DNA of 64,000 nt from an uncultured delta proteobacterium (lineage in GTDB: Bacteria; Desulfobacterota; Syntrophia; Syntrophales; UBA8958), in assembly GCA_903885795.1 (NCBI GenBank), contig CAISJV010000082.1:1-64000 (forward strand), written 5' to 3'. The notes beneath the pieces are model-generated. The model did no database searches. It was not told the origin of the DNA and saw only the letters and a list, made by a program, of their open reading frames with translations. The position numbers were made by a program, and so were the translations under genes. Below, in pieces: positions 8,446 through 11,363 of this stretch; position 1 is the stretch's first letter, and the number at the start of each line of letters is the position of its first letter.

Positions 8446-9132
8446 TCATGATTGGATCAGCAGGATTTTTTGTTTGATTTTATCTGCTTTTTCACTTTCC
8501 TGCCGTTGCTCATAAAAAGCCTGCAGGCGGTTTAAATAGACCAGGAGGGCCTTTTTCCACCCCTGCCGGGAAGCGGCTTCCACCGCCCCATTAAGCAGTT
8601 CCTCGTTATCATACCCGTAACGCACCAGGAGCCCCGTCATGACCAGCCGTGAAAGAGGATCTTCGATCTTCCGGACATCCGCAGCAAGACTATCCCTTCT
8701 GGCGGCAAGAACATCGGCGACGGTCTGGGTATATTGGGGAGGAAGCAGGTTCCGGTTCGTCTGTGAAAAGTTTCCCTTCAGGAAGGAGTAAAACCCGGCG
8801 TTCACAGGGTCCGGTTCCGCAGTCTGGATTTTCAGAAAGTCGTCATCCCGAAAAGATTCCAAAAGGGCAACCTGCACGGCATACCGGTTCAGATAGGCCT
8901 TGGCTAAGAGATTGAGATCCCCGCTTTTTTTGATCTCTTCTACGGCACACTGGAAGTGTAAATCGGCCATTCCCTCCTTTCCTTCCAGATAGGCTTTCTT
9001 GAAATCCTCCATCTGATTGAAGCTGACATACGTCCAATCCGGTATGGGCTGAGAGCCGCCACAACTCATGAGGAGGATCGTGAGCAGCATGACTGGAAGT
9101 ACACTCCTCATCGTAATTTTATTTCCTTTCAT
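8446..9132 (-). CDS. Lipoprotein of the MCE transport operon, helical
   Basis: 228 residues with a lipoprotein signal (VMLLTILLMS-C) placing it on a membrane facing the periplasm. The mature part is alpha-helical and charged, with segments like AYLNRYAVQVALLESF and VYLNRLQAFYEQRQESEK that suggest TPR-like helical hairpins. No family is recognised. A second start (9111) with an AAGGAAA upstream is possible. It is the last gene of the unit behind MlaE, the degenerate ATPase and MlaD, so it probably assists that lipid transporter, perhaps as an outer-membrane partner. Confidence 0.65.
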   Translation of the reverse strand: MKGNKITMRSVLPVMLLTILLMSCGGSQPIPDWTYVSFNQMEDFKKAYLEGKEGMADLHFQCAVEEIKKSGDLNLLAKAYLNRYAVQVALLESFRDDDFLKIQTAEPDPVNAGFYSFLKGNFSQTNRNLLPPQYTQTVADVLAARRDSLAADVRKIEDPLSRLVMTGLLVRYGYDNEELLNGAVEAASRQGWKKALLVYLNRLQAFYEQRQESEKADKIKQKILLIQS

Positions 9133-9173: not shown

Positions 9174-10106
9174 CTAGGGCAGTTTAATTTTTGGCTCGGA
9201 TTTAAACGGTATTTTCTGATCCAGCTCGTTAATCAACCGGTTGAGGGAATTCACGGTTGTGTCAACCTCACTTCTGAAGATCTTTAAATCCTTTGTCGCT
9301 TCCTCTGCATTTGAACTGATTTTAGTAACATTGTCAAGGGTTTTGCCAATCTTGCCTAGATTGATGACCAGTTCCCTGAGGATCTTGATAGCCAGAGGAA
9401 TGATGCCGTCCTTCCCGTAGAGTTCCTCATCCGTTTTTTTAAGTAGCTGATCCACCTGATCGGTAATATTTCTGGCATTCTGCAGGGCGGCATGAATGTT
9501 CCGGACGCTTTTTTCATCTCCCAAGGCCATCTCCAGGACGGATTTCTTGGAAGACAGAGATCCTGTTAATTCCCGGGCATTTTTAAGAATATGGCTCATG
9601 TCCCCTTGCGGGTCAGCGAGAGCACTGGTCAACCGTTCGACATTGTCCGTAATCATGGCTACCTGTTCCAGGATAGGCTGAATATTTTGGATTGCATCAT
9701 TGATGTCATTGACTTCCGTCAAAATAGCAATGGAATTGGAGGTCAACGGAGAACTGCCCAGGTTTGTCGTAGTTACCGTGAACTTCGGAGAACCGATGAG
9801 GGGCTTTTCAAGGACGAATTTACTATCGGAGCGCATCCATTTGGCGTGTTGGGTTGGTACTCTGACCTTCATCATAACCATCCCCTTGTCGCTGAGTTCC
9901 AGTTCCGCAATCTTGCCGATCTTGAACCCGGAAAAATAGAGCGGCATACCTACGGATAAACCGTCTCCCGTCCGCGAGGAAAGGGTGTAGGTATTCTCCG
10001 GCTGAAAAATACCCTTTTTATAGGCCATATAACCGAGGCCGGCAAGGATAAGCAGCACTGTCAAAACTATGAAAAGGCCCACTCTCCATTCCGTTTTAAG
10101 CGCCAT
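9174..10106 (-). CDS. MlaD/MCE-domain substrate-binding protein
   Basis: 310 residues. One N-terminal membrane segment (VGLFIVLTVLLILAGLGYMAY) is followed by an MCE domain at about residues 38-115 (TGDGLSVGMPLYFSGFKIGK, VRVPTQHAKWM, LEKPLIGSPKFTV). The remainder is a long coiled coil (DNVERLTSALADPQGD to SEVDTTVNSLNRLINELDQ) as in PqiB/Mce proteins that span the periplasm. MCE proteins bind lipids as hexameric rings and work with an MlaE-type permease. The gene overlaps the upstream ATPase-like gene by 11 bases and has GGAGG before its ATG. Confidence 0.9.
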   Translation of the reverse strand: MALKTEWRVGLFIVLTVLLILAGLGYMAYKKGIFQPENTYTLSSRTGDGLSVGMPLYFSGFKIGKIAELELSDKGMVMMKVRVPTQHAKWMRSDSKFVLEKPLIGSPKFTVTTTNLGSSPLTSNSIAILTEVNDINDAIQNIQPILEQVAMITDNVERLTSALADPQGDMSHILKNARELTGSLSSKKSVLEMALGDEKSVRNIHAALQNARNITDQVDQLLKKTDEELYGKDGIIPLAIKILRELVINLGKIGKTLDNVTKISSNAEEATKDLKIFRSEVDTTVNSLNRLINELDQKIPFKSEPKIKLP

Positions 10107-10566
10107 GGATCATTCCTCCTGTGTACCGCTCTTCATTCCAGAGATAGTCAAAGATATGGCATTCCTGAAACAAGTCATCCACTGACGTGAGGACATCACG
10201 AATAAAGCTTGTGTCATCAAGGTCCGGCATGATTTTGAAGGGTCTGTCTATAACCACGACAGCGTCTTCAACCATTACCGCTCTCAGGACCATGGCGCAA
10301 AACCGCTGTTCCTCTAAAAGTACGGGATTTCTCTTCTCAGCAATATCTTCAAGTTGCAACTTCTTTAAGCCCATCTTTACAATATCTTCCGCCTCGCGAA
10401 CTGAAAGGTGCCCGTGATACTGTTTGATCAAGGCGACATTGCTCAGCACGCTGAGATTGGATATCAGGGGAGCATCGAGGGAGACCAAACCCAGGCGGCG
10501 TTCTTCCTGCGACATGATATCAGCAAGTTCTCGCTCCAGCAGTTCTCCACCGCTGTAGAATCTCAA
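10096..10566 (-). CDS. Degenerate MlaF-like ABC ATPase without Walker A
   Basis: 156 residues occupying the slot where an MlaF ATPase is expected, but it lacks the first 70 or so residues including Walker A. What remains aligns with the second half of an ABC ATPase: LISNLSVLSNVAL corresponds to the region after the Q-loop, LLEEQRFCAMVLRA stands where LSGGQ...ARA should be, and VVVIDRPF replaces Walker B hhhhDEP with no catalytic glutamate. It starts at TTG overlapping the mlaE stop (TTGA), so translation is coupled and no 5' part is hidden upstream. ATP hydrolysis is very unlikely; it may be a structural or regulatory subunit. Confidence 0.7.
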   Translation of the reverse strand: MRFYSGGELLERELADIMSQEERRLGLVSLDAPLISNLSVLSNVALIKQYHGHLSVREAEDIVKMGLKKLQLEDIAEKRNPVLLEEQRFCAMVLRAVMVEDAVVVIDRPFKIMPDLDDTSFIRDVLTSVDDLFQECHIFDYLWNEERYTGGMIHGA

Positions 10567-11363
10567 ATGAATTTTTCGATCAATGACATGACGATTAATG
10601 AGACCACCTCGATAATCATAATTGCAATAAAAACATTTACCATACCATGCAGAACGGAAACGGGAATGCTGGTCAGCTCATCTGTGGCGCGCATGCCATA
10701 ACGGATGGGGATCATGACAATAAAAAATCCCATCGTCGCACATTTAATCGACATCACGATGAGATCAGAAAAATTCGCCGACACCAGAAGAACCGTCACA
10801 TAGTCATTCATACTCATATCAAATAGCAGGGCCGAAAAGATAAGACCACTGGTAAGAACGACGATGGAAAACAGCCAACTAAGCAATACGATCGAAAGGA
10901 TACCGCAGAGAATACGCGGCAGGAAAAGATAATTGATCACATCGATCCGAAAGACATGCAGGGTATTCAGCTCTTTATTGACCTTCATGACGGCGATTTC
11001 TGCATTGACGGCCGAGCTTGAACGCAGGGCGATCAGGAGGACTGTGATGAAGGGGGCAAATTCCGTAACCACAAAACCCATGAGTAGCTGGCCAAAATAG
11101 TCAAACAGACCCAAGTGGATCAGATACTGGCCGATGATACCGATGACAATTGCCCCAAAACCGGCTGCTACAGTTAAAAAAAGAGGCAGGATCTGGACAG
11201 AGGTAAAATAGATCTGATTGATCAGGACCATGCGAACCGCACTGTTATAAGCCCGGACATCAAACATTCGAGCGAGGATTTTAATGGCAAAAGCAAGAGT
11301 GTCCAGGAAAGAACTGAAGGCATGCAGGCCTGATCTGCCGATTTGCTCGATGGCTGTCGTCAT
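10563..11363 (-). CDS. MlaE-type ABC transporter permease
   Basis: About 266 residues from the ATG at 11363; the open frame extends upstream to a TTG at 11450 but has no binding site there. Family features: an amphipathic N-terminal helix, FTSVQILPLFLTVAAGFGAI, the TEFAPFITVLLIALRSSSAVNAEI segment typical of MlaE (usually GR.G.A..AEI), and several later membrane helices. It forms the inner-membrane channel of an MCE lipid-transport system, with the ATPase-like gene and mlaD downstream in overlapping order. Confidence 0.88.
   Translation of the reverse strand: MTTAIEQIGRSGLHAFSSFLDTLAFAIKILARMFDVRAYNSAVRMVLINQIYFTSVQILPLFLTVAAGFGAIVIGIIGQYLIHLGLFDYFGQLLMGFVVTEFAPFITVLLIALRSSSAVNAEIAVMKVNKELNTLHVFRIDVINYLFLPRILCGILSIVLLSWLFSIVVLTSGLIFSALLFDMSMNDYVTVLLVSANFSDLIVMSIKCATMGFFIVMIPIRYGMRATDELTSIPVSVLHGMVNVFIAIMIIEVVSLIVMSLIEKFI

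Follow-up and report, generated by a model that had tools for sequence, protein, structure and literature searches.

In the MlaFEDB transporters of E. coli, P. aeruginosa and A. baumannii, the ABC ATPase MlaF is encoded beside mlaE and mlaD, and the coupling helix of the permease MlaE contacts MlaF (PMC7790496). Pqi and Let (PqiABC, LetAB) are MCE bridges without an ATPase domain (PMC12436622), Pqi being equipped in addition with an outer-membrane lipoprotein (PMC12436622, PMC10897342). The role of ATP hydrolysis in MCE transport, and of bridges that do without it, is treated as open for both systems (PMC10897342); passive movement, an unknown ATPase or the proton motive force are considered for PqiA, if it is a transporter (PMC10897342). 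The chimeric Mla-Pqi system Mpc of Brucella abortus combines an MlaE-type permease, a long MCE protein and an outer-membrane lipoprotein in one operon and retains an MlaF-like ATPase, MpcF (PMC12436622). The mycobacterial Mce operons come without an intact ATPase of their own, the intact ATPase MceG being encoded elsewhere (PMC9947336).

Here we describe an MCE operon in which a degenerate nucleotide-binding domain, referred to as the pseudo-NBD, accompanies the permease. The window, i.e. the whole stretch of DNA that was analysed, comprises 64,000 nt of an uncultured delta proteobacterium of the order Syntrophales (GenBank assembly GCA_903885795.1, contig CAISJV010000082.1, positions 1 to 64,000). 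The operon consists of four minus-strand genes: mlaE (10563..11363), the pseudo-NBD gene (10096..10599, counted from the start proposed below), mlaD (9174..10106) and a lipoprotein gene (8446..9132). The divergent permease has 266 aa when read from ATG (the ORF finder had placed the start at TTG 11450), and the 310-aa mlaD product carries an MCE domain (PF02470, E 3.7e-06). With an MlaE-family permease and an MCE-domain protein the locus meets the criterion for an Mla-type MCE system; that for a PqiA/LetA permease is not met, MlaE (PF02405, E 2.6e-41) being the sole Pfam family detected for the permease. The operon resembles Pqi and Let as an MCE bridge without an ATPase, but PqiA and LetA are not MlaE, whereas the window operon keeps an MlaE permease and a dead NBD. 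With Mpc it shares the MlaE-type permease, the long MCE protein and a lipoprotein encoded in the same operon, but Mpc retains its ATPase. The absence of an intact ATPase of its own is the likeness to the mycobacterial Mce operons; no orphan equivalent of MceG was found in the home genome, G000. No description of a degenerate MlaF was found in the titles and abstract openings of the open-licence PMC literature.

The initial annotation had reported a gene at 10096-10566 whose start overlaps the mlaE stop, and our ORF listing agrees (minus strand, TTG start at 10566, 156 aa). The gene occupies the MlaF position, between mlaE and mlaD. The description of its motifs also proved correct: there is no Walker A, LLEEQRF (10300..10320, minus strand) replaces the LSGGQ signature, and IDRP (10240..10251, minus strand) replaces the Walker B DEP, with the Asp retained and the catalytic Glu changed to Arg. 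Compared with MlaF, the pseudo-NBD lacks Walker A, the Q-loop Gln, LSGGQ and the catalytic Glu, and has an AUU/AUC start. Walker A (GxxGxGK[ST]) was absent from the truncated pseudo-NBD proteins, and the 22 truncated rows tabulated contained no Walker A, LSGGQ or DE pair; other truncated proteins deviate at the LSGGQ position, too. In the region of the H-loop His, HIFDYL is the aligned stretch, the alignment being uncertain there. A PLISN motif (10456..10470, minus strand) is invariant across the 24 rows of the alignment of truncated proteins (A1), where MlaF has ALFDS after the Q-loop, and 7 of the 16 invariant A1 columns fall in residues 44-57, just past the Q-loop position. A Pfam search with the pseudo-NBD gave no match. 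Among NCBIfam models, 38 matched at E up to 1 (best FtsE, 2.2e-05); the best 25 of the 38 are all ABC ATP-binding proteins, and the matches cover about the Q-loop to beyond Walker B. The MlaF equivalog NF008809 scored 15 bits and did not reach its cut-off of 441 bits; since none of 41 genomes of the order exceeds this cut-off, it is stricter than the order's own MlaF. In size, the pseudo-NBD (167 aa) compares with 248-414 aa for the three MlaF of the home genome.

The pseudo-NBD is predicted with confidence to have the ABC nucleotide-binding fold. Its AF2 model, calculated from A1 and from the ATT start, reached pLDDT 91.4 and pTM 0.88 and contains strands at residues 10-15, 36-39, 114-118 and 146-152 and helices at 18-31, 51-63, 67-80 and 96-108. 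A Foldseek search with the model gave 436 PDB matches at E <= 0.001, of which the best 50 are ABC domains. The 50 matches listed by VIA are ABC domains as well, many within 1 Z of one another; with MlaF (6xbd_I), Z was 13.5 and rmsd 3.1 for 156 aligned residues, model residues 1-161 lying on 28-210. Judging from the aligned ranges, without a residue-level structural alignment, strand 10-15 seems to be the P-loop strand and helix 18-31 the helix after it; the missing parts are inferred to be the P-loop itself and the N-terminal beta subdomain. The earlier comparison to the C-terminal half of an ABC ATPase is right in part only, as one further strand and one further helix are predicted in the extended N-terminus.

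A profile-profile comparison of the pseudo-NBD with the three MlaF of G000 gave a probability of 96% and E 4.4e-9, with no other ABC family as a control. For profiles of the pseudo-NBD family, amino-acid importers and LptB are better matches than MlaF. As MlaF does not stand out in the structural ranking either, the case for descent from it is built on gene position and on the intermediate series described below; the criterion of a slot between mlaE and mlaD, with intermediates, is met. The pseudo-NBD is like MlaF in its slot beside mlaE and mlaD and in its ABC fold, and its profile matches the MlaF encoded in its own genome.

The gene is conserved in homologous operons. Matches at E <1e-30 were obtained in 24 of 41 genomes of the order, and a 52-residue remnant was seen in G007. 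When 155 genomes of the order were searched with the A1 profile, 87 had strong homologues (E <= 1e-30) and 100 had a match at E <= 1e-8, the 13 additional genomes having weak matches to longer frames or, in one case, the G007 remnant. G097, which carries the locus, is presumably the cultivated Syntrophus aciditrophicus. This type of MlaE was assigned, by eye, to 26 of the 41 genomes: 24 of these, G004 included, have the truncated gene, G007 has the remnant and in G003 the locus ends at a contig break. Wherever the locus extends that far, the neighbours are mlaE and mlaD, except in the damaged G004 and G007. In G004 (L023, contig C77), one frame joins the pseudo-NBD to the end of MlaD, from about residue 194 onwards, and mlaE is split across frames, which points to a deletion or an assembly error. 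In G007 (L025, contig C164), the residues up to about 104 are missing, and the ATT start and the C-terminus form one frame of 56 aa. The damage in both genomes may be due either to assembly errors or to real losses. One assembly, G018 (listed contamination 5%), contains two differing copies of the pseudo-NBD (L015 on C3 and L129 on C321).

The pseudo-NBD gene is under purifying selection. With the mlaE overlap excluded, Nei-Gojobori omega had a median of 0.17 and a highest value of 0.42, the median for mlaE being 0.10 (136 candidate pairs, of which 60 were computed and 48 passed the dS filter; the pairs are non-independent). The deletions inside the gene in G007 and G004 could be taken to mean that it is a functionless, decaying remnant of mlaF, retained through its overlap with mlaE and mlaD. 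This is highly improbable, given the low omega outside the mlaE overlap, the open frame with invariant columns across the order and the confidently predicted fold. A local pseudogene is ruled out by the distribution across the order together with omega. Gene position and homology, together with the loss of motifs and the purifying selection, support the proposal that a pseudo-ATPase has replaced MlaF.

The overlap of the gene with mlaE stands, but TTG 10566 is probably not its start. A start 33 nt upstream, at an ATT codon (10597..10599, minus strand), would give 167 aa and a stop codon, with an overlap of 37 nt with mlaE. Five nucleotides before this ATT lies a Shine-Dalgarno-like GAGGTG (10605..10610, minus strand), read as Glu-Val codons in mlaE. 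In the first 26 loci inspected, the NBD frame was -1 relative to mlaE, and GAGGTN and ATT lay 5 nt apart within mlaE. The start-site set comprised 104 loci, 101 of them with the mlaE C-terminus (L009, L126 and L128 were left out) and 84 distinct. Among the distinct loci, ATT was found in 73 and ATC in 11, preceded by GAG in 84/84 and GTG in 78/84; 59 of the 84 were independent of the forming of the start-codon idea, and these had 48 ATT and 11 ATC. The overlap with mlaE is 22 nt at 75 loci, 37 nt at 8 and 25 nt at 1. Because the 5-nt spacing is also fixed by the mlaE codons, it is weak evidence alone. Wobble positions were compared over 253 codon columns of mlaE, leaving out those for Met/Trp and those with <70 sequences; median third-position conservation was 0.48. 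The three best-conserved third positions were G in the Glu codon (84/84), A before TT/TC (84/84) and G in the Val codon (79/84, including one GCG), while elsewhere in these mlaE genes GAG accounts for 28% of Glu, TCA for 11% of Ser and TTA for 13% of Leu codons. The 11 ATC loci have Ser TCG in mlaE where the others have Leu TTA; thus the mlaE residue has changed and the Ile codon of the other frame has been retained.

No ATG, GTG or TTG occurs between 8 codons before and 4 codons after the ATT/ATC at any of the 84 loci. As a control, 50 of 52 full-length NBD genes adjoining related or canonical MlaE have such a codon among the 8 that lead up to the corresponding position (the misses are L105 and L100). 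Still, the protein might start at a downstream ATG, GTG or TTG, with the conservation of ATT due to some other role in the mRNA: TTG 10566 is usable as a start in the window, and 76 of 81 loci have some ordinary start codon before PLISN (the remaining 3 of the 84 have no recognised motif). We find this improbable, since the first ordinary codon is scattered from 6 to 77 codons downstream of ATT/ATC, 5 of the 81 loci have none before the motif, and a start at TTG 10566 would remove part of the predicted strand 10-15. Programmed -1 frameshifting from mlaE, yielding an MlaE-NBD fusion with the Shine-Dalgarno-like sequence as stimulator, would fit the -1 frame and the conserved overlap. It appears quite improbable, as no slippery heptamer was found by eye in the junctions inspected, and the conserved bases are those of the Shine-Dalgarno-like stretch and a single Ile codon.

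An AUU/AUC start of the pseudo-NBD has strong support at the DNA level, where alone the criterion of a conserved non-canonical start codon with a Shine-Dalgarno sequence is met; its use in the cell is inferred and unproven. Translation would begin at AUU/AUC behind the Shine-Dalgarno sequence within mlaE, which may result in low output, coupling to mlaE and sensitivity to IF3, control by IF3 being again an inference. Known genes with such starts are infC, which is under IF3 control and begins with ATT in E. coli and with ATC in Streptomyces, and sigR, which begins with GTC (PMC5472188). The pseudo-NBD gene has the non-canonical start in common with these genes but belongs to a transporter operon and has its start inside an overlapping gene. 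It would add to the conserved examples of non-canonical initiation that annotation by ATG, GTG and TTG overlooks.

Longer NBDs were found in the pseudo-NBD slot of other genomes. Four genomes from two families of the order (G033, G021, G015 and G037) encode NBDs of 223-231 aa there, with letters such as ADRIDDAH at Walker A, without LSGGQ and with a LISN motif (LIGN in G015). Searching 395 genomes of the phylum with the group profile for MlaE gave matches at E <= 1e-30 in 61 of them, and the profile of full-length dead NBDs matched 11 genomes at E <= 1e-20; NBD neighbours were read for part of the 61 genomes only. Walker A is kept and LSGGQ changed in L154, L168, L170, L235, L236, L243, L246, L250 (where the NBD lies 986 nt from MlaE), L252, L253 and L255. 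Walker A is damaged in L155, L159, L164, L166, L231 and L232 and lost in L162. The NBDs of L156, L158, L160, L161, L163, L165, L167, L181, L237, L240, L242, L244, L245, L248 and L251 are full-length and dead, and those of L247, L249 and L254 are canonical. In most non-canonical NBDs, L240 and L251 being exceptions, a LISN-like motif takes the place of the LFDS of canonical MlaF. Six loci (L243, L246, L250, L252, L253 and L255) combine an intact Walker A with an LSLG-/LSLE-type signature and LISN and possibly represent a half-active class. An HMM search for an adjoining NBD found none at 7 phylum MlaE loci (L233, L234, L238, L241, L256, L257 and L258), although L256 is incomplete because its stretch ends there; for L230 and L239 the alignment was only partial. 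At L238, L241 and L258 the gene after MlaE presumably encodes a fructose-bisphosphatase-like protein.

Relatives with an intact Walker A in this slot, which according to the initial annotation would indicate a local pseudogene, do occur, but in other families of the phylum, and mostly lack LSGGQ. They form one end of a graded series and thus speak for ancestry, not for a local accident. We regard it as firmly established that the MlaF slot is occupied by a conserved pseudo-ATPase, which is under selection and belongs to a phylum-wide series of NBD decay. In a 56-row MlaE tree, support was 100/100 for the truncated clade, 97/99 for the dead full-length and 91/80 for the damaged group; the 16 canonical rows, all from this order, lie on one side of a 100/97 branch, and the three rows with only Walker A fall in two places. 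If the tree is rooted on the canonical side, these sequences imply two or more losses or breakages of Walker A, and probably three. The stem of the truncated clade is long (3.38), so its placement is unsure. We propose, tentatively and short of calling it probable, that in one branch of MlaE the ATPase was disabled stepwise, at least two independent times, to become a pure docking subunit of an ATP-independent lipid bridge, the P-loop being lost and an obligate AUU/AUC start arising within mlaE in this order. A scan of genome contigs with a single protein yielded 5 loci, and the profiles were not applied beyond the phylum.

The initial annotation had left two possibilities, an ATPase encoded elsewhere or none at all. 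Four MlaE are encoded in the home genome, and three of them adjoin an NBD with Walker A. In a search for MlaF in this genome, these NBDs were the top three of 49 matches (229, 202 and 162 bits), the next match reaching 121 bits, and no orphan MlaF was found among the 49. The MlaE coupling helix has a mean pairwise identity of 0.70 within the truncated group, vs. 0.58 for the rest of MlaE, and the canonical proteins gave similar values (0.71 vs. 0.57). Between the two groups, identity is 0.23 in the coupling helix and 0.20 in the rest of MlaE. This pattern would most likely reflect a dedicated partner, most likely the pseudo-NBD.

An MlaF-like ATPase is encoded elsewhere in 41 of 41 genomes tested (E <= 1e-38), which makes a borrowed ATPase possible: the canonical MlaF of another mla operon would energise this MlaE, with the pseudo-NBD as adaptor or regulator. 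A parallel is MceG, apparently common to Mce1 and Mce4 (PMC9947336). We regard such borrowing as unlikely, although worth keeping in mind. Each of the three best MlaF matches of G000 adjoins an MlaE of its own before the scores fall, and the coupling helix is hardly more alike between the groups than the rest of MlaE, so it is not constrained by a shared partner. In ABC dimers, LSGGQ is needed to complete the ATP site in trans; with this motif lost too, the pseudo-NBD could hardly do so, and a heterodimer with canonical MlaF is for the same reason unlikely. As a separate observation, one canonical MlaF match (G013:C1:388061-388825) contains an in-frame TAG.

Working without an ATPase is thus the favoured of the two possibilities, with neither proven. 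The explanation that we prefer, and consider somewhat probable, is that the pseudo-NBD is a non-catalytic descendant of MlaF that docks onto MlaE, as a subunit of an MCE lipid bridge lacking its own ATPase. It would retain the core of the ABC fold and the region adjoining the MlaE coupling helix, without the motifs for ATP binding, ATP hydrolysis and NBD dimerisation, and would most likely sit beneath the MlaE dimer as a structural or assembly subunit, although docking is inferred without experiment. MlaE, the pseudo-NBD, the long MlaD and, by inference, the lipoprotein would make up the bridge. Lipid movement through it may be passive or driven by a force other than ATP, possibilities that are also considered for Pqi and Let. 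The lack of an ATPase domain in these two systems (PMC12436622) supports ATP-free transport. On the other hand, Mce1 and Mce4 of M. tuberculosis were not stabilised when the MceG that they share carried Walker B mutations (PMC9947336), so that a dead NBD is insufficient there, which counts against a scaffold role. Transport without ATP, for which there is no experiment, is likely but remains open. That the ATPase motifs are gone while the permease, the MCE protein and the NBD scaffold remain under selection bears on the role of ATP in MCE transport.

The lipoprotein (228 aa; lipobox Cys codon at 9061-9063, minus strand) is predicted to be all-helical, the AF2 model having a pLDDT of 93.8. A Foldseek search with this model gave nothing at E <= 0.001 (best a TPR protein at 0.064, with BamD chains lower), and a Pfam search gave no match, the family expected of a PqiC being DUF330. 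In its all-helical prediction and weak TPR matches it differs from the Pqi lipoprotein; its identity with PqiC has no support from either search, though it is not excluded. By analogy with PqiC and MpcA, we can only guess that it might act as an outer-membrane dock for MlaD. A homologue of the lipoprotein was present at 64 of 68 loci searched, duplicates included.
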